Shown here: positions 835 to 16,447 of the stretch, piece after piece
Position numbering within the stretch: position 1 is the first letter of the stretch
Layout: each line of letters starts with the position of its first letter
NCBI GenBank assembly: GCA_003153955.1
Contig: PMCB01000132.1
Location: 1-16,859 of the forward strand
DNA length: 16,859 nt
Direction of reading: 5' to 3'
Origin: Dehalococcoidia bacterium
GTDB lineage: Bacteria; Chloroflexota; Dehalococcoidia; Dehalococcoidales; Fen-1064
Notes under the pieces: generated by a model
Databases searched by the model: none
What the model was told of the DNA's origin: nothing
The model's input: the letters and a program-made list of their open reading frames with translations, nothing else
Translations under genes and position numbers: made by a program

Positions 835-1737
835 TTAGCACTTTTTCGTGGTGACGTACTTTTCTTCCAGGCCTTCCCAGAAATCCAAACGGCGCAGCTT
901 GTTGAGATAAGCGTTATCCGGCAAGCCGGCGGGAAAGAAGCTTTTTGTCGAGCCGGTATCATAAAGACCTTGATACATATCGATTAAGGCTTTGGCCACG
1001 CCGGGAAGGGGATTACCCGGTACCCACAGTTTGGCGCCGATATCTTCGTAGTCTTTGGTGGTAAATTCTTCCGGCCCCGAGCCCCAAATCCAGACTTTGG
1101 GTGCGCCCATTTTTTTATAAATATCTTTCATGATGGACTTGGTGGTCTCGCCGGATTTCGGTTTGATGGTATCGATACCTTGAGGAAGGAGCGCATCGAC
1201 GCCTAAATCCACCGCCGCTTTCATCCTTGCAATTGCGTCTTCCACGCCGTTGGTCCGTAAGGAATCAGTGCGGGCACAGATGAAAAAGTCTTTATCTTCT
1301 TTTTCGCGGGCTTCCATGGCAGCCTTGAGTTTACCGATATATTCATCCAGCGGAACAACTTCCTGGGTTCCGAGCGCCGGGCATTTGGTTGGGTGCTTCT
1401 GGTCGTCAAGGAACAAGCCTGCAGCCCCGGCCCGGATCAGTTCGCGAGTGGTACGGTAAGCGGCCAACGCTCCGCCGTAGCCGTCATCAGCGTCCACGAT
1501 GAAAGGGATATCCACCGAATTGACCATATTTCTGACGATATTCACGACTTCAGTGGCCGTGGCAATACCGAAATCAGGCATACCGAGTTGAGCGTCGCGG
1601 ATCCCGTAACCGGTCATAAAAACAGCTTTAAACCCGACCGCTTCCGCCATACGGGCAGACAAACAGTCGTAAGCGCAGGGAATGACTTTCAATCCGGGTT
1701 CATTAAGTAATTTCCGCAGCATTTTCGTCTTTTTCAT
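835..1737 (-). CDS. PEP mutase/isocitrate lyase superfamily C-C lyase
   Basis: The product has 300 residues from the ATG at 1737, which has an AAGGGG ribosome binding site 8 bases upstream; an in-frame ATG at 1770 would overlap the previous gene and lacks this site. The fold is the alpha/beta barrel of the PEP mutase/isocitrate lyase superfamily: VIPCAYDCLSAR (18-29), FMTGYG..LGMPD (40-54), the Mg-binding segment VDADDGYGG (81-89), DDQ (111-113), FFICARTDS (151-159) and DALLPQG (181-187). Known members cleave 2-methylisocitrate, isocitrate or 2,3-dimethylmalate, decarboxylate oxaloacetate, or rearrange phosphonates. The flexible-loop signature KRCGH reads TKCPA here (117-121): the Cys is kept and the Gly-His is lost. 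The usual PE after the sixth strand is PQ. It is the last gene of an operon with aconitase-type subunits, which suggests cleavage of a hydroxy-dicarboxylate or -tricarboxylate made by that enzyme. Exact substrate unknown. Confidence 0.85.
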   Translation of the reverse strand: MKKTKMLRKLLNEPGLKVIPCAYDCLSARMAEAVGFKAVFMTGYGIRDAQLGMPDFGIATATEVVNIVRNMVNSVDIPFIVDADDGYGGALAAYRTTRELIRAGAAGLFLDDQKHPTKCPALGTQEVVPLDEYIGKLKAAMEAREKEDKDFFICARTDSLRTNGVEDAIARMKAAVDLGVDALLPQGIDTIKPKSGETTKSIMKDIYKKMGAPKVWIWGSGPEEFTTKDYEDIGAKLWVPGNPLPGVAKALIDMYQGLYDTGSTKSFFPAGLPDNAYLNKLRRLDFWEGLEEKYVTTKKC

Positions 1738-1750
1738 CAAAATACCCCTT

Positions 1751-2269
1751 TTATATTTTACCTTCAGCAATCAGTTTATCGGTATACGGTTCGATGCCGC
1801 CGGCCGACATGATTTCCAGTAAAAAGTCAGGCAGCGGTGTAAATTTCAGGGTTTTCTTGGTAGTGACGTTCTTGATTTCACCGGCCTCAAGGTCAACTTC
1901 CAGAATATCGCCGGCCTTAACATTTTTATTTATCCCTTCCAGTTCAATAATTGGCAAACCCAGATTGATGGAATTTTTAAAGAAGTTCCGGTCGAATGAT
2001 TCGGCGATGACACAAGAGATGCCGGCTTGTTTGATGCCGATATTGGCGTGCTGGTGGCCGTGCCCGCAGCCCATATTGGTGCCGACGACCATGATATCGC
2101 CCTTCTTCACTTTCTTCGGGAATTCAGGGTCGACCGGGGTCATCACCCATTTGCCGAAATTACCGTCTTTCATTAAACCCATTTCACGTTCGCGAAACGG
2201 GATAATTTCTTTATCGACATCCAGATTATCACCAAAGACCCATACTTTGCCTTTGAATTTTAAAGCCAT
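1751..2269 (-). CDS. Aconitase/IPM isomerase-type small subunit (LeuD-like)
   Basis: The product has 172 residues, normal for a LeuD/DmdB-type swivel domain. Family marks are VWVFGDNLDVDKEIIP (9-24), where other members have the substrate-contacting GD-N-TD-IIP segment, the glycine-rich motif at 63-75, and GISCVIAESFDRNFFKNSINLGLP further on. In aconitases and isopropylmalate isomerases the glycine-rich motif reads NFGCGSSREHA and supplies the catalytic Ser and the carboxylate-binding Arg. Here it reads NMGCGHGHQHA, so Ser-Ser-Arg-Glu is replaced by His-Gly-His-Gln. The frame, length and remaining motifs are intact, so this looks like altered specificity, not decay. An AAGGAG ribosome binding site precedes the ATG. 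The gene starts 11 bp after the large subunit gene stops and ends 13 bp before the lyase gene begins, so the three are translated from one message. It should form a heterodimer or higher complex with the large subunit. Confidence 0.88.
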   Translation of the reverse strand: MALKFKGKVWVFGDNLDVDKEIIPFREREMGLMKDGNFGKWVMTPVDPEFPKKVKKGDIMVVGTNMGCGHGHQHANIGIKQAGISCVIAESFDRNFFKNSINLGLPIIELEGINKNVKAGDILEVDLEAGEIKNVTTKKTLKFTPLPDFLLEIMSAGGIEPYTDKLIAEGKI

Positions 2270-2280
2270 TAATTTACTCC

Positions 2281-3561
2281 TTAAAGATATTTGCGGGGGT
2301 CAGCGATTTTACCTTCGAGCGCGGAGGCGGCAACAGTGGCGGGGCTGCCCAGATAGACCTGAGCGCTTTCTTCGCCCATGCGTCCCGGGACGTTGGTGGT
2401 ACTGGAGGCGATACAGACCTCGTTCTTGGCGAGCGGGGTGTAGAATCCCGGACACATGCTGCAGCTGGGGGCGCAAATCAGACAACCGGCTTCCAGCAGC
2501 GTAGAAATGATGCCTTCCTTATCCGTCCGGAGCATTGTTTCCGCAGACCCGGGAGTGACATTGAACATCACATCAGGGTGGATTTTTTTGCCTTTTAAAA
2601 TCCTGGCGGCAATTCTCAAATCTTCGTCACGGCCGCTGGCGCAGGAACCGATGAAAGCGGTGGTGATTTTGGTGCCCTCAACCGATGAAACAGGCTGGAC
2701 GGTACGCCGGTACGGCGGAACAACGATCTGCGGCTCAATTTTGGAACCGTCGTAGGTATATGTTTTAGCATACACGGCATCCGGGTCGCTGTACTGAGGC
2801 TCATAATGAACTTTGGTCCGTGTTTTGAACCAGTCAAATACTTTTTGGTCGGGATTAACGATGCCGGTCTTCGCGCCGGTAAAAATGGAGAGGCAGCACA
2901 TGGATAAACGCCCGTCGAGGCTCATATCTTCGACGACCTGTCCCGTAAATTCCATCGCCTGATAGACAGCCCCGGCCGGACCGATTTGGCCAAGGATATA
3001 TTCAAATACATCCCGGCCCATTACGCCGTCCTGCAGTTTACCGGTGATGTTGAATTTGATACTTTTCGGCACACGGAACCACATCCAGCCGAGCCGCAGA
3101 AAAGCAGGTTCTGCGGCGGAAAGATTGATACCCAGACAGCCGACCCCGCCGGCAGTAGGGCAATGGGTATCGGCGTGCAGGTAAACATTGCCCGGCAGCG
3201 CCCAGCCTTTTTCGATGGGAAGATGGTGACATGTGCCGACATTACCCAAATCGAGGATATTTTCTTTAGGAACACCTAACGACAAGGCCCATTCTTTAGT
3301 AATGCGGTGGGATTCCCTGTTGGTTACATTATCCTGCTGCCTGGCCCAGGTGCCGCAATGTTCCGGGGCAATCATCACTTTTTTGGGGTCAAAAAATTTA
3401 TCCCAGCCGAGACGCTCATATTCCCGGGAATTAAGGGCGCCGATATCGCTGCCGACCTGAATATAGGTGTCTTTGATACCGAATTTAAGATAATCTCCGG
3501 GAGAAACCTCCGGTTTGCCGGCAGCTTTGGCCATGATTTTTTCGACGATGGTTTTTCCCAT
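2281..3561 (-). CDS. Aconitase/IPM isomerase-type large subunit (LeuC-like)
   Basis: The product has 426 residues, the usual length of the short LeuC/HACN/DmdA-type large subunit that carries the [4Fe-4S] cluster of a hydro-lyase. The three cluster cysteines are visible: Cys307 in IGSCASGR and Cys367 and Cys370 in SCSMCPGF. The substrate-side segment TTNVPGRMG (388-396) keeps the expected Arg. The family motif G-DSHT-T-GA appears as ADTHCPTAGG (130-139), and the SCTNGR motif as SCASGR, so two family hallmarks have changed. Known relatives isomerise isopropylmalate, hydrate homoaconitate or dehydrate 2,3-dimethylmalate; none can be chosen from sequence alone. An AGAGAGG ribosome binding site precedes the ATG, and a consensus promoter lies about 150 bp upstream. 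It is the first gene of the operon with the small subunit and the C-C lyase. Confidence 0.88.
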   Translation of the reverse strand: MGKTIVEKIMAKAAGKPEVSPGDYLKFGIKDTYIQVGSDIGALNSREYERLGWDKFFDPKKVMIAPEHCGTWARQQDNVTNRESHRITKEWALSLGVPKENILDLGNVGTCHHLPIEKGWALPGNVYLHADTHCPTAGGVGCLGINLSAAEPAFLRLGWMWFRVPKSIKFNITGKLQDGVMGRDVFEYILGQIGPAGAVYQAMEFTGQVVEDMSLDGRLSMCCLSIFTGAKTGIVNPDQKVFDWFKTRTKVHYEPQYSDPDAVYAKTYTYDGSKIEPQIVVPPYRRTVQPVSSVEGTKITTAFIGSCASGRDEDLRIAARILKGKKIHPDVMFNVTPGSAETMLRTDKEGIISTLLEAGCLICAPSCSMCPGFYTPLAKNEVCIASSTTNVPGRMGEESAQVYLGSPATVAASALEGKIADPRKYL

Positions 3562-3712
3562 GCTAAAAATACCTCTCTTTTTGTCTCAGGCTTTAAATAC
3601 ATTGAGAAAGCCGGATAATATTAAAAAACGATAGGGAAATGATGCAGCCGATTTCGAATCAGGCAGTGAATTAAAAAACATGATACTTTGATATCACCTA
3701 TCTTTTGCAGAC

Positions 3713-3741
3713 AGGATAACACTCAAAAAAAGTTTTGTCAA
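3713..3741 (-). promoter_or_regulatory. Promoter of the LeuC-like/LeuD-like/lyase operon
   Basis: On the minus strand a perfect TTGACA (3736-3741) and TATCCT (3713-3718) are separated by exactly 17 bp. Transcription would start near 3706, giving a leader of about 145 nt before the ATG at 3561. The leader contains a short hairpin (TGATA-TCAAAG-TATCA followed by TGTTTTTT) and later CCCTATCG followed by TTTTTT. The long leader leaves room for attenuation, but no known riboswitch is recognisable. Confidence 0.65.
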
Positions 3742-4711: not shown

Positions 4712-4757
4712 TCATTTAGTGGCTGTAAAACCGGTCACAAAAACGAAGGTGAGTGAA

Positions 4758-5510
4758 ATGAGCAAATTCATTGAAAGATTACAACAGGTAATGACGCCCT
4801 CTGTTCAATCCATGGGCTTTATGACGGCAAAAGCGCAATGCGCCAGACCGAAAATACAGCTTGTTCTGAACGTTAACGCAAGCAAAGCAAAAACTCAGAT
4901 CAAAGAAGCGGCCGGGGCTGATGCTCTCCTCTTTTCCAATGGTGCAGTTGACTGCGGAGAGACAGTAACCGGAATGCGGCTGGTAAAAGGCGACGCAGAA
5001 GAAGTCGAGAAAGCGGTCAAAGCCGGAGCTGATTTCGTTGTCTTGCCGCTAAGCGGAGAAGTTTTAGCACCCGATAAAAAAGTGGGAAAAATTATTCAAA
5101 TAGAGGACGCAATCACCGACATTATGTTACGCACGGTTAGCGATCTCCCGGCAGACGCGGTACTTTTGATGGAAGACAAAGAAAACAGCCTGTCATTGAC
5201 TTGGAAAAGATTGATGCTGATTCGCAAGTTCGCCTCCCTATCAGGCAAGCCCTTGCTGATTGAAGTCCTGGCAAGTGTTAAAGAGACCGAGCTGCAACAG
5301 ATTTGGGATGCCGGAGTCAGCGGCGTAGTCGTCAGGATAGACGCGGAACAGGCTGAAGCCGCGGCCGCGAATTTGCGGCAAATAATCGAAAAACTGACAT
5401 TTCCATCGAAACAGAAGAATGGAAAAAACATGGCGATTGTGCCCGCGGTGACCGTTGCTGCCGAAGCTCCCAAAGAAGACGACGATGACGATGATGACGA
5501 CGACGAATAG
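4758..5510 (+). CDS. Uncharacterised TIM-barrel-like protein with poly-Asp tail
   Basis: The product has 250 residues from the ATG at 4758, which follows a good ribosome binding site (AAGGTGAG, 4747-4754). An in-frame GTG at 4719 would add 13 residues but has no such site. I do not recognise a named family. The pattern of alternating strands and helices, with segments such as AGADALLFSNG, AGADFVVLPLSG, KPLLIEVLAS and AGVSGVVVRID, suggests a beta/alpha barrel like those of phosphate-sugar or flavin enzymes, but no catalytic motif is evident. A hydrophobic, Ala-rich linker leads to a C-terminal run of nine Asp residues and a final Glu. The Asp codons are a mix of GAC and GAT, so it is not a recent triplet expansion. 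No signal peptide or membrane segment is visible, so it is probably cytosolic. It is transcribed alone. Confidence 0.8.
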   Translation: MSKFIERLQQVMTPSVQSMGFMTAKAQCARPKIQLVLNVNASKAKTQIKEAAGADALLFSNGAVDCGETVTGMRLVKGDAEEVEKAVKAGADFVVLPLSGEVLAPDKKVGKIIQIEDAITDIMLRTVSDLPADAVLLMEDKENSLSLTWKRLMLIRKFASLSGKPLLIEVLASVKETELQQIWDAGVSGVVVRIDAEQAEAAAANLRQIIEKLTFPSKQKNGKNMAIVPAVTVAAEAPKEDDDDDDDDDE

Positions 5511-12977: not shown

Positions 12978-13268
12978 TGTAAAGGCGTTGAAGGAGAAGA
13001 GTAAGAGCATTAATGGCGCCCAGCGAGTCCGGCATGGTGTGAGCGGACGCGCCTGACCCTCTGAAAATCCCTCCTGAGCTGCCAACCGAAAAGAATTTTT
13101 CTGAGTAGGCTTGGCCGGAGCCGTCAGCCGTTAACAGCGACGAGGACATTTATTTGTGTCCTGGGGTTCTTTGTTGAGCCCTAAAAGAGCGCCCCGGATA
13201 TTTCGGGGAAACAGGGTGGTACCGCGGGTGTTTTGCAAATCCCGTCCCTCATAAGGACGGGATTTTTT
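12978..13268 (+). promoter_or_regulatory. T-box riboswitch for ileS
   Basis: All parts of a transcriptional T-box are readable. Stem I is closed by AGGAG (12992-12996) with CTCCT (13071-13075). The specifier loop has AGTA on the 5' side and GAAAATCC on the 3' side, where ATC (13067-13069) is an isoleucine codon. The AG bulge and distal loop read AGCGAG...ATGGTGTGAGCGGAC, close to the family consensus. A stem III-like segment with TGAGTAGG follows. The T-box proper is AGGGTGGTACCGCGGG (13213-13228), which pairs with the acceptor end of uncharged tRNA, and a terminator hairpin follows. Uncharged tRNA-Ile should favour the antiterminator and switch ileS on. The base after the specifier is C, where a purine is usual. 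Confidence 0.93.
13239..13268 (+). terminator. Regulated terminator of the ileS T-box
   Basis: ATCCCGTCC (13239-13247) pairs perfectly with GGACGGGAT (13255-13263) around the loop CTCATAA and is followed by T to 13268. Its 5' arm can pair instead with the GCGGG end of the T-box sequence to form the antiterminator. Confidence 0.92.
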
Positions 13269-13350: not shown

Positions 13351-13369
13351 ATTGAGATGGAGGCTGAAC

Positions 13370-16300
13370 ATGTTTGAACCGGTGAGCAGTCGGGTGAATT
13401 TCCCGCAAAATGAAGAGAAACAACTGGCATTCTGGAAACAGAATCAAATTTTTGAAAAGAGTGTGAAGAACCGGGAGGGCAATCCGAGATTTGTGCTTTA
13501 CGAAGGGCCCCCGACGGCGAACGGTAACCCCGGCATCCATCACGTCCTGGGGCGTGCGTATAAAGATATCATCACCCGTTATAAAGTGATGAAAGGTTAT
13601 TACGCGCCGCGCATCGCCGGCTGGGATACCCACGGTCTGCCGGTAGAACTCGAAGTGGAGAAACAGCTCGGTTTTTCCGGTAAATCTCAAATCGAGGCTT
13701 ATGGCGTGCAGCAATTCAACGAAAAATGCCGGGACAGCGTCTTTAAATATTTGAAAGAGTGGGACAATCTGACCGAAAGAATCGCCTATTGGGTCGATTT
13801 GGAACATGCTTATGTCACGATGAACAGCACTTATATTGAGTCGGTTTGGTGGGCCATCAAACAAATGTGGGATAAAGGGCTGATTTACCAGGGTTATAAA
13901 GTCACGCCCCACTGCCCGCGTTGCGGCACTTCCCTCAGTTCCCATGAAGTGGCGCAGGGCTACAAAGACGATACGGAAGACCCGTCAGTCTATATCAAGT
14001 TTCGAACACACCTGAAATCTAAAAAGGAATCGCCGGCACTGGCGCAATTACGTGAGCTCACTGGTCGGAAAAAAGTATATCTGATGGCATGGACCACCAC
14101 GCCGTGGACATTGCCGGGGAATACCGCCGTGGCCGTAGCGGCGAATGTGGAATATGCCATGGTGGAACACGACGGCGAATATCTGATTTTCGCGGATGCT
14201 AGACGGCAGGCAGTCGGGTTGGGGGAAAATACCGTTATCGCAACAATCCCGGGCAAGGATTTAGTTGGGGTGGAATATGAACCGCTGTTCAATCCCCACG
14301 AATTCGGGGTGGACCGGGAGCGGTTTACTTCCGGTAATGAATTGACACTGCAGAAACCGTTAAAAAGCCTGGTCTATCACGTCATCGCGGCGGATTTCGT
14401 CTCGATGGACGATGGTACGGGGATTGTGCATATTGCGCCGGCTTACGGTGAAGACGATTATCACGCAGGGCAGGAAAACGGACTCGATTTTGTCCATAAT
14501 GTCGATTTGCAGGGTAAGATAATCGGCAGCTATCCGTTCGCCGGTAAATTCATCAAAACCGCCGACCCTCTGGTGCTGGATAACCTGCGGGAGCGCGGGC
14601 TTTTGTTTAAAGTCGGGACAATACGACACACTTATCCTTTCTGCTGGCGGTGTAGTTCCCCGCTGGTCTATTACGCCAAACAAAGCTGGTACATCCGCAC
14701 CACCGCGGTCAAAGATGAGCTGATAAAAGGCAACGAGGAAATTAACTGGTATCCGGAGCATGTCAAAGAAGGGCGTTTCGGTGACTGGCTGGCGCATAAT
14801 GTCGACTGGGCATTCTCCCGTGAACGGTACTGGGGGACGCCAATGCCGATCTGGAAATGCGAAAAATGCGGCAATTTCGAATGTATCGGCAGTGTGGACG
14901 AACTGAAAGGCAAACCGGATGTCAAAATGGATTCGATGGCCGCCCACAAACTGAAAAACGGCGAATATGATTTGCACCGGCCTTTCATCGATGACACAAC
15001 CTTCACATGCGGTAAATGCGGCGGCCTGATGAAACGTGCCCCGGAAGTGATCGACTGCTGGTTTGATTCCGGTTCAATGCCCTTTGCGCAGCTGCATTAT
15101 CCTTTCGAGAATAAAGAGCTGTTCGATAAAGAGTTAAAGGTTGCAGATTATATCTGCGAGGGTGTCGACCAGACACGCGGCTGGTTCTACAGCCTGCACG
15201 CAATTTCGACGGCGTTGTTCGACCGGCCCTGCTATAAAAACTGTATCTGTTTTGAACTGATTCTCGACGCCAAAGGCGAGAAAATGAGCAAGAGCAGAGG
15301 TAATGTCGTGAAGCCGATGGACGTGGTCAAACTATACGGCGCCGATGCCCTGCGCTGGTACTGCTATACTTCAGCGCCGCCCGGCAGTGTGCGGCGTTTT
15401 GATACGAAGATGGTAGCGGATATCACCAGGTCGATCATGCTGACATTGTGGAATGTCTATTCGTTCTTCGTAATGTATGCCAATATCGATAATTTTAAAC
15501 CGGACCCGGCGAAAACCGTGAAAGAAGTGCCGGAGCTCGACCTTTGGATACTTTCGGAATTGAATCAGTTAGTCATTGATGTCGATGCCGGGTTAAACGG
15601 ATATGATCCCACCGGGCCGGCGCGTAAACTCGAGGAATTTGTGGACATGCTGTCCAACTGGTATGTACGCCGCAGCCGCCGCCGCTTCTGGAAGAGTGAG
15701 AGCGATACCGATAAACTGTCGGCTTACAATACGCTTTATCATTGCCTGGTAACAGTCTCGAAACTGATCGCGCCGTTTATGCCGTACCTGGCGGAAGAAA
15801 TGTATCAGAATCTGGTCTGTTCTCAGGACAAAGATGCGCCTGTCAGCGTCCATCTGGCGGATTTCCCGGTCGCTGATACGGCACAGGTCAACCGCGACCT
15901 TTCTGCCGATACCCAGCTGGCGATGAAAGTATGCAGCCTCGGCCGGGCTGCCCGCAGTCAAGCAAATGTCAAGGTGCGTCAGCCGCTGGGCCAGGCGTTG
16001 ATCCGGGTAAACTCGGTACGGGAACGGGATGGATTAATCCGCATTATGCCGCAAATCCTGGAAGAACTCAATGTGAAAACACTGGCTTTTACAGACAAAG
16101 TCGAAGAACTAAACATGCCGGACTTATGTGTCAGTGCGGAAGGCGAAGTTTCGGTGGCCATTCCCCGAACCGTTTCGCCGGAACTGGCGGAAGAGGGACT
16201 GGCGCGGGAAATTGTCCACCGCCTGCAAACAATGCGGAAGACCGCTGGTTTTGAAATCGCGGACTATATCGTCACATATTATCAGGGCGATGATTACGTT

Positions 16301-16447
16301 AAGCAGGTGATGAGCAATTATGCCGATTACGTGAAACTGGAAACATTGTCCCGCAGCCTGATAGATGGCAAACCGGAAGAAGGTGTGGCCACAGAAACAT
16401 TCAAACTCAACGACCACGCGGTGGTGCTGGGAGTAAAGAAAGTTTAG
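13370..16447 (+). CDS. ileS: Isoleucyl-tRNA synthetase, long (type 2) form
   Basis: The product has 1025 residues from the ATG at 13370, which has a GGAGG ribosome binding site; an in-frame TTG at 13352 is less likely. It charges tRNA-Ile. The HIGH region is GIHH (55-58) in PPTANGNPGIHHVLG, and KMSKS is intact at 638-642. GWDTHGLPVELEVEK (84-98) has Thr where type 1 bacterial enzymes usually have Cys; this and the length point to the eukaryote-like type 2 form. The editing domain is complete, with AWTTTPWTLPGNTAVAV and GTGIVHIAPAYGEDDY. Cys pairs occur at CPRC, CWRC, CEKC and CGKC. The anticodon-binding domain (ELDLWILSELNQ, then NWYVRRSRRRFW) and a long C-terminal domain complete the protein. 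Expression is governed by the T-box leader. Type 2 enzymes are generally less sensitive to mupirocin; this is family knowledge only. Confidence 0.96.
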   Translation: MFEPVSSRVNFPQNEEKQLAFWKQNQIFEKSVKNREGNPRFVLYEGPPTANGNPGIHHVLGRAYKDIITRYKVMKGYYAPRIAGWDTHGLPVELEVEKQLGFSGKSQIEAYGVQQFNEKCRDSVFKYLKEWDNLTERIAYWVDLEHAYVTMNSTYIESVWWAIKQMWDKGLIYQGYKVTPHCPRCGTSLSSHEVAQGYKDDTEDPSVYIKFRTHLKSKKESPALAQLRELTGRKKVYLMAWTTTPWTLPGNTAVAVAANVEYAMVEHDGEYLIFADARRQAVGLGENTVIATIPGKDLVGVEYEPLFNPHEFGVDRERFTSGNELTLQKPLKSLVYHVIAADFVSMDDGTGIVHIAPAYGEDDYHAGQENGLDFVHNVDLQGKIIGSYPFAGKFIKTADPLVLDNLRERGLLFKVGTIRHTYPFCWRCSSPLVYYAKQSWYIRTTAVKDELIKGNEEINWYPEHVKEGRFGDWLAHNVDWAFSRERYWGTPMPIWKCEKCGNFECIGSVDELKGKPDVKMDSMAAHKLKNGEYDLHRPFIDDTTFTCGKCGGLMKRAPEVIDCWFDSGSMPFAQLHYPFENKELFDKELKVADYICEGVDQTRGWFYSLHAISTALFDRPCYKNCICFELILDAKGEKMSKSRGNVVKPMDVVKLYGADALRWYCYTSAPPGSVRRFDTKMVADITRSIMLTLWNVYSFFVMYANIDNFKPDPAKTVKEVPELDLWILSELNQLVIDVDAGLNGYDPTGPARKLEEFVDMLSNWYVRRSRRRFWKSESDTDKLSAYNTLYHCLVTVSKLIAPFMPYLAEEMYQNLVCSQDKDAPVSVHLADFPVADTAQVNRDLSADTQLAMKVCSLGRAARSQANVKVRQPLGQALIRVNSVRERDGLIRIMPQILEELNVKTLAFTDKVEELNMPDLCVSAEGEVSVAIPRTVSPELAEEGLAREIVHRLQTMRKTAGFEIADYIVTYYQGDDYVKQVMSNYADYVKLETLSRSLIDGKPEEGVATETFKLNDHAVVLGVKKV

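Follow-up and report, generated by a model that had tools for sequence, protein, structure and literature searches.

Organization of the three-gene unit

The window analysed in this work, a stretch of 16,859 nucleotides of a Dehalococcoidia bacterium (contig PMCB01000132.1; genome G000 below), contains three closely spaced genes on its minus strand, here called the trio. In order, they code for a LeuC/aconitase-type large subunit (2281..3561, 426 amino acids), a LeuD/aconitase-C-type small, or swivel, subunit (1751..2269, 172 amino acids) and a lyase of the phosphoenolpyruvate (PEP)-mutase/isocitrate-lyase (ICL) superfamily (835..1737, 300 amino acids from ATG). ATG at 1737 is the likely start of the lyase; a TTG-initiated open reading frame (ORF) extends to 1770. 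The gaps between the genes are 11 and 13 bp, and the three-gene unit with this spacing, proposed in a first-pass annotation of the DNA, is borne out by ORFs and coordinates. The same annotation placed the unit under one consensus promoter. A promoter-like box exists upstream of the trio (TTGACA-17-TATCCT, 10 of 12, 3713..3741, minus strand), but its standing as the sole consensus promoter is unproven: five promoter-like sites were found in the scanned region versus 4.2 expected, a number that chance alone could give.

As the annotation had stated, no leuA, leuB, citrate synthase or nicotinate gene was recognised when the ORFs of the window were read; the family scan covered three neighbours only. 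The trio is surrounded by housekeeping-like genes, and no transporter was recognised alongside by reading.

Cluster ligands and substrate-site residues

All three cluster cysteines are present in the large subunit: C307, C367 and C370 align with C358, C421 and C424 of aconitase. The first lies in the motif S306-CASG-R311 (2629..2646, minus strand like all motifs of the trio), in which T-N is changed to A-S; the second and third form C367-x-x-C370 (2452..2463). From these kept ligands the LeuCD-like pair is predicted to carry a [4Fe-4S] cluster. Equivalents of H101, H147, D165, H167, E262 and R452 are also retained (H68, H112, D131, H133, E204 and R394). On the contrary, S166, N446, R447 and D100 are substituted by T132, T388, T389 and E67, respectively. 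The first of these changes falls in D131-T-H-C134 (3160..3171), which replaces D165-S-H-T in alignments to aconitase and normal LeuC. N446 and R447 lie in a motif that the first-pass annotation had missed, where NRNF-GR is turned into T388-T389-N-V-P-G-R394 (2380..2400), R452 being kept. The aconitase numbers N446, R447, R452, E262, S166, D100 and H101 were fitted to the alignments.

The small subunit carries the motif G69-H-G-H-Q73, of which H70-G-H72-Q (2051..2062) occupies the place of aconitase S642-S643-R644-E. In printed alignments to LeuD structures, H70-G71-H72 falls on S-S-R of GSSRE; placement on S642/S643/R644 comes from equal-length stretches (profile 59-108 versus 5acn 631-680) of a weak match (E 0.05) whose alignment was not printed. 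The general base Ser642 and the S643/R644 hallmark of the aconitase superfamily are thus missing, with H70, G71 and H72 in their positions. In aconitase, R447 and R644 bind carboxylate. According to PMC8184944, which names S642, D165, H167, H147 and the three cysteines, Ser642 is the general base common to non-AcnX aconitases, whose subfamilies share more than 15 of 20 active-site residues as identical.

We compared these positions among homologs drawn from metagenome and genome proteins, mostly listed without taxonomy. At position 70 of the small subunit, 118 of 121 sequences (the window and the best 120 of 310) have His and the other 3 have Gln, and at position 72 all 121 have His, so the H-x-H arrangement is more than chance. 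Small subunits read from 10 relatives (L003-L012) have GSSRE. For the large subunit, the trio-type set comprises 52 sequences, fragments included (the window and 51 from the best 120 of 5813). Position 389 is T in 47 of them, L in 2, Q in 1 and gapped in 2, and the cluster cysteines are present in 52 (C307), 50 (C367) and 50 (C370). Equivalents of H101, H147, D165, H167 and E262 occur in 41/42, 44/44, 44/45, 45/45 and 52/52 ungapped sequences. Across the trio-type clade the cluster ligands are kept, and the base Ser and the two arginines are replaced together; the motif changes are a clade signature.

In a quick tree of 124 large subunits (the window, 14 from loci and 109 of 120 listed, with at least 380 amino acids), a branch of 0.71 (SH-aLRT 99) sets 117 trio-type and wider-clade sequences apart from 7 regular LeuCs; the program warned of long branches meeting among the regular sequences and at E. 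coli LeuC. P0163, one of the 69 sequences assigned to the wider set, groups within the trio clade here.

The predicted structure of the small subunit is good (pLDDT 92.9) and shows the swivel fold, with TM scores of 0.87-0.92 to 3vba chains. Its residue 29, located in the specificity loop, is Asp or Glu in 96 of the same 121 sequences. The corresponding loop reads YLVY in the isopropylmalate isomerase 3vba and YLRT in the homoaconitase 2pkp. An acidic residue here would disfavour substrates with a distal carboxylate, and we infer that the actual substrate may lack one at that end.

Within the wider clade, 14 of the 69 large subunits form one clade of their own (SH-aLRT 100 in the quick tree), in which Asp, Glu and Glu replace the three cluster cysteines; Asn is found for H147 and Gln for N446. 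Members are P0216, P0219, P0220, P0222, P0224, P0227, P0229, P0230, P0232, P0233, P0234, P0235, P0237 and P0239. Apparently, these proteins have an aconitase fold without ligands for a [4Fe-4S] cluster. With P0232 as query (E 1e-95), the one match among 400 genomes of the phylum was the window genome, through its two copies of trio type.

The lyase and its paralogs

The catalytic-cysteine loop of the lyase reads T117-K-C119-P-A121 (1375..1389), at the place of KRCGH in E. coli PrpB. All four motif replacements of the first-pass annotation (DSHT to DTHC, SCTNGR to SCASGR, SSRE to HGHQ and KRCGH to TKCPA) are thereby confirmed by translation; DSHT, SCTNGR and GSSRE are seen in regular LeuCD proteins of relatives. 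Its coordinated change in three proteins holds for LeuC and LeuD. The lyase retains C119, the catalytic cysteine that serves as general acid, so that its change is milder than the other two; the DxD motif region is kept as well.

Lyase paralogs number 6 in G000 and 10 in the related genome G004. Five of the six lyases whose genes lie in LeuCD operons have the HPTKC loop, and all ten others lack it (Fisher p 0.0014, not corrected for common descent); on the lyase tree, the LeuCD label needs 2 changes. This tree contains 56 sequences, 19 of known place and every third of 120 listed (37), with short ones dropped, and the window lyase lies on a branch far from E. coli PrpB. H-x-H LeuCD genes are directly followed by a lyase gene in 6 of 8 copies in the two genomes. 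Comparison shows both the linkage of LeuCD with a lyase and the rule for the lyase cysteine.

As a proxy for linkage outside these genomes, metagenome contigs were matched by length between clusters of the three proteins (117/120 LeuD, 53/120 LeuC and 91/120 lyase clusters entered). LeuD-LeuC pairs were found 8 times versus 0-2 at seven offsets, LeuD-lyase 9 versus 0-5 and LeuC-lyase 4 versus 0-3. Little weight is given to this proxy, as both signals with the lyase are weak and chance matches occur among short contigs.

The ten cysteine-less PEP-mutase-type paralogs outside LeuCD operons (L038-L045 and L020 6505-7419) have surroundings of their own. For seven of them, a Pfam-confirmed SBP_bac_5 (family-5 solute-binding) protein is encoded in the fetched stretch; in the remaining cases (L038 twice, L040), reading of the ORFs, without a Pfam scan, revealed no such protein. 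Several of these loci also hold Cupin_2 or xylose-isomerase-like genes. On our reading, they are predicted to represent an expanded uptake-and-conversion system.

Relationship to known families

Pfam assigns the pair to Aconitase (PF00330, 228.2 bits) and Aconitase_C (PF00694, 43.1 bits), and the lyase to PEP_mutase and ICL. The sole NCBIfam model listed for the trio whose cut-off is passed is the LeuD/DmdB subfamily TIGR02087 (162.5 versus 108.95 bits). The general aconitase/isopropylmalate isomerase (IPMI) large-subunit subfamily is missed by 1.8 bits (383.2 versus 385). Equivalog cut-offs are missed for LeuC (TIGR02083, 312.4 versus 610.65), LeuD (TIGR02084, 165.3 versus 245.85) and PrpB (TIGR02317, 169.7 versus 354.4 bits); scores of the listed aconitase and 2-methylisocitrate dehydratase models are far below cut-offs. 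A check against curated families had been called for, and in equivalog models the trio proteins have no fit. On the question whether characterised dimethylmalate or methylcitrate clades share the substitutions, the partial comparison covered E. coli PrpB and LeuC, solved IPMI and homoaconitase sequences and the curated models.

The closest solved relatives of the pair are isopropylmalate/citramalate isomerases (large subunits 4nqy/4kp1, small subunit 3vba) from Methanocaldococcus jannaschii, with which it shares two subunits, three cluster cysteines and the swivel fold. Unlike in IPMI, the Ser642, Ser643, Arg644, Arg447 and Asn446 positions are replaced, D-S-H-T is D-T-H-C, and the genes adjoin a lyase instead of leuA/leuB. 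According to PMC8184944, AcnX types I and II demonstrate that this superfamily is able to perform plain dehydration with altered site residues. AcnX type I keeps the base-position serine and differs in cluster ligands; the trio pair is the reverse, and none of the trio proteins matches the AcnX family (Pfam, E up to 0.001). The lyase matches PrpB, petal death protein 1zlp and 2,3-dimethylmalate lyase 3fa3, the latter two being its closest solved relatives; in contrast to E. coli PrpB it has TKCPA for KRCGH and, before the loop, D-D-Q for E-D-Q.

Ordinary LeuCD of leucine synthesis was rejected, since G000 possesses a separate leuA-C-D-B set on another contig (L034, by reading) and the equivalog cut-offs are missed; a second LeuCD lies beside a dehydrogenase-like gene elsewhere in this genome (by reading). 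We file the trio within the aconitase superfamily as a putative variant that is not LeuCD, DmdAB or PrpB. In the literature, searched by title or abstract start with thin coverage of subscription papers, no description of the H-x-H variant or of the trio was found. Relatives carry the names 3-isopropylmalate dehydratase and methylisocitrate lyase, under which trio-type proteins are currently annotated.

Distribution, selection and genomic context

We wondered if the trio occurs in other genomes, as its conservation outside the window genome had been set as a check. The unit recurs as paralogs in Dehalococcoidia bacterium fen_1014 (G004), a sister species in the same genus; G000 and G004 are metagenome-assembled genomes (MAGs), 83% and 86% complete. 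Close small subunits (at least 66% identity) are found in G000 (2 copies) and G004 (6 copies) alone among 61 relatives, G000 included. With the small subunit as query at E 1e-50, 1 of 393 genomes of the class and 1 of 400 of the phylum matched, each time the window's own; the large subunit at E 1e-98 retrieved 3 of the 393 class genomes (G000, G104 and G132). A G132 protein used as query in a second class draw retrieved 2 of 343 (G104 and G132). The trio is rare in sampled genomes, its proteins are present in metagenomes, and with orthologs and paralogs in G004 its conservation beyond the window genome is supported. It is under strong purifying selection: ratios of nonsynonymous to synonymous substitution rates (dN/dS) between the window and G004 orthologs are 0.049 for LeuC, 0.066 for LeuD and 0.064 for the lyase, with synonymous sites near saturation.

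Several of the neighbouring genes described below were named by reading their sequence. The second trio of G000 (C23; L019) lies beside a short-chain dehydrogenase, a MaoC/FAS1-type dehydratase and a coenzyme A (CoA)-transferase-type protein. In G004, the orthologous trio (C119; L020) is accompanied by a lipoprotein homolog, a double-cubane HGD-D protein, a cysteine-less lyase and two family-5 solute-binding proteins. C106 carries two LeuCD pairs, one with a gapped LeuC, and one cysteine-less lyase; C55 has LeuCD without lyase, together with a molybdopterin oxidoreductase, an old-yellow-enzyme protein, a dehydrogenase and a solute-binding protein. After the trio of C135 (L023) come genes for a 2-oxoacid oxidoreductase in the order gamma, alpha, beta; the gamma subunit passes its subfamily cut-off, the other two match below theirs. 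This locus also has a 4-hydroxybenzoyl-CoA-reductase-like protein, likewise below cut-off, and a weak match to aldehyde oxidoreductase. The gapped trio at the end of contig C10 (L024) comes with oxidoreductase fragments, recognised by reading.

Related pairs occur in two further genomes. In G132 (L030), a GHDHDH pair is clustered with a second, further altered LeuD, two ICL-type lyases (KRCGF and KKSGS), regular LeuCD, a solute-binding protein and permeases recognised by reading. Since both lyases fall outside the lyase clade of the window (branch 1.81, 100/100, with long rows present in the tree), the association of an H-x-H pair with a lyase is seen with another lyase lineage. The second LeuD-like gene of this cluster (L030 4069-4668) has the active-site loop GASVACLDGDPEDPH, neither of SSRE nor of H-x-H form. 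In G104 (L031), a GHDNDH pair lies beside a TcuA-type tricarballylate dehydrogenase (498.6 versus cut-off 369), a protein that matches PrpD weakly, an MtmB-family methyltransferase and a peptide-type ATP-binding cassette (ABC) transporter.

Proposed reaction and alternatives

Kept ligands for a cluster that binds a carboxylate together with the adjacent hydroxyl, coordinated change of two subunits and a lyase cysteine that tracks the operon fit hydration or isomerisation followed by retro-aldol cleavage. On balance, we favour the trio as a hydration-then-cleavage module that would yield a 2-oxoacid, with a rebuilt site for proton transfer and carboxylate binding; the aconitase-like enzyme probably hydrates, and the lyase then splits, an organic acid. 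The LeuC/LeuD-like pair would form a [4Fe-4S] hydro-lyase that hydrates or isomerises an unsaturated or hydroxylated di- or tricarboxylate. The His pair may take over proton transfer, and loss of R447 and R644 may reflect a substrate in which one carboxylate is absent or different. From the malate-type acid so formed, the lyase would release a carboxylate and a 2-oxoacid in a retro-aldol reaction. The latter might be oxidised by a ferredoxin-linked 2-oxoacid oxidoreductase, genes for which lie at two paralogous loci. Such a module would be catabolic and would run from hydration to cleavage.

The first-pass annotation had suggested a hydration/cleavage route of a branched hydroxy-acid. Its hydration-plus-cleavage logic gains from the lyase cysteine tracking LeuCD, the branched hydroxy-acid is conjectural, and its interpretation as a whole is partly supported.

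Several observations weigh against the proposed module. The 2-oxoacid oxidoreductase neighbours paralogous loci and not that of the window. No lyase gene comes directly after two of the eight LeuCD copies (that of C55 and the first of the two C106 pairs), and the single lyase of C106 has no cysteine despite its LeuCD operon. A cysteine-less lyase, C119b (counted among the ten others), is located about 1.9 kb from the C119 trio, an opposite-strand gene lying between them. More generally, the lyase column contains Cys in 48 of 121 sequences (the window and the best 120 of 558), gaps in 37 and other residues in 36; with 73 of 121 lacking it, the gapped ones included, loss of the cysteine is common in the lyase family. 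In the G104 pair the second His is replaced by N, and the stretch of G104 that was read revealed no recognisable lyase. The AlphaFold model of the large subunit (mean pLDDT 71.3) is too weak for a check of the composite site. Finally, structure titles record crystals of the aconitase mutants S642A and R644Q; as these mutants are reportedly crippled, the LeuCD-like pair could be a poor hydro-lyase.

One alternative is that the pair no longer performs hydro-lyase chemistry and serves in binding, in regulation or as a metal protein, the lyase acting alone. It would account for the missing serine and substrate arginines, for the sister clade devoid even of cluster ligands (14/69) and for the frequency of lyases without LeuCD (10/16). 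We consider it unlikely: the cluster cysteines and equivalents of H101, H147, D165, H167 and E262 are kept in trio-type sequences, purifying selection is strong, and the lyase cysteine tracks LeuCD.

A diverged module of DmdAB and 2,3-dimethylmalate lyase, which would make propionate and pyruvate in nicotinate fermentation, is quite unlikely. In its favour, the trio has the same logic of a hydro-lyase with a PEP-mutase/ICL-type lyase as the Eubacterium barkeri system. The LeuD/DmdB cut-off is passed, the paralogous trio L023 has a 4-hydroxybenzoyl-CoA-reductase/XDH-like hydroxylase and a 2-oxoacid oxidoreductase nearby, and metagenome relative P0246 is automatically named 2,3-dimethylmalate lyase. 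Against it, no nicotinate-pathway partner was found in one partner search, for PrpF-type isomerase (PF04303, the methylitaconate isomerase family) in the incomplete MAGs G000 and G004, and no nicotinate gene was recognised in the window. DmdB itself is probably an ordinary GSSRE-type LeuD.

That the trio is instead a biosynthetic isomerase-lyase for a dedicated metabolite is suggested by the housekeeping-like, transporter-free surroundings of the window copy. This seems distinctly unlikely, as paralogous clusters and wider-clade loci hold family-5 solute-binding proteins, CoA enzymes and redox enzymes, and copy number varies (2 in G000, 6 in G004).

A conventional pair of methylcitrate or aconitase/methylisocitrate lyase type that would serve propionate, to whose superfamilies the large subunit and lyase belong, is very improbable and was rejected on family-model scores (see above for PrpB, aconitase and 2-methylisocitrate dehydratase), the Ser base and two arginines being lost and no citrate synthase recognised alongside among the window ORFs.

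Taken further, the hydration-then-cleavage module leads to a broader and more tentative proposal, to which we give somewhat less than even credence. A cluster-bearing aconitase-fold clade of Chloroflexota may have swapped the Ser-alkoxide base and two arginines for a His-x-His relay and, with a dedicated C-C lyase, may act on an acid outside described pathways, the Asp/Glu/Glu branch possibly working on another metal. A clade without the serine and substrate arginines, yet with cluster ligands, would make the indispensable parts of aconitase chemistry directly testable. The trio also points to an organic-acid route expanded in two Dehalococcoidia genomes, one of them named from a fen.

Other features of the window

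Convergent with the trio is a lipoprotein-like gene (225-809) without Pfam or NCBIfam match. Its homolog adjoins the orthologous trio of G004 (L020 964-1557; 65% identity, dN/dS 0.13). A 263-amino-acid ORF at 4719-5510, which ends in an Asp/Glu run, belongs to no Pfam or NCBIfam family. A T-box leader (12979-13252, 110.8 bits) is located upstream of 13352-16447, which reads as isoleucyl-tRNA synthetase.

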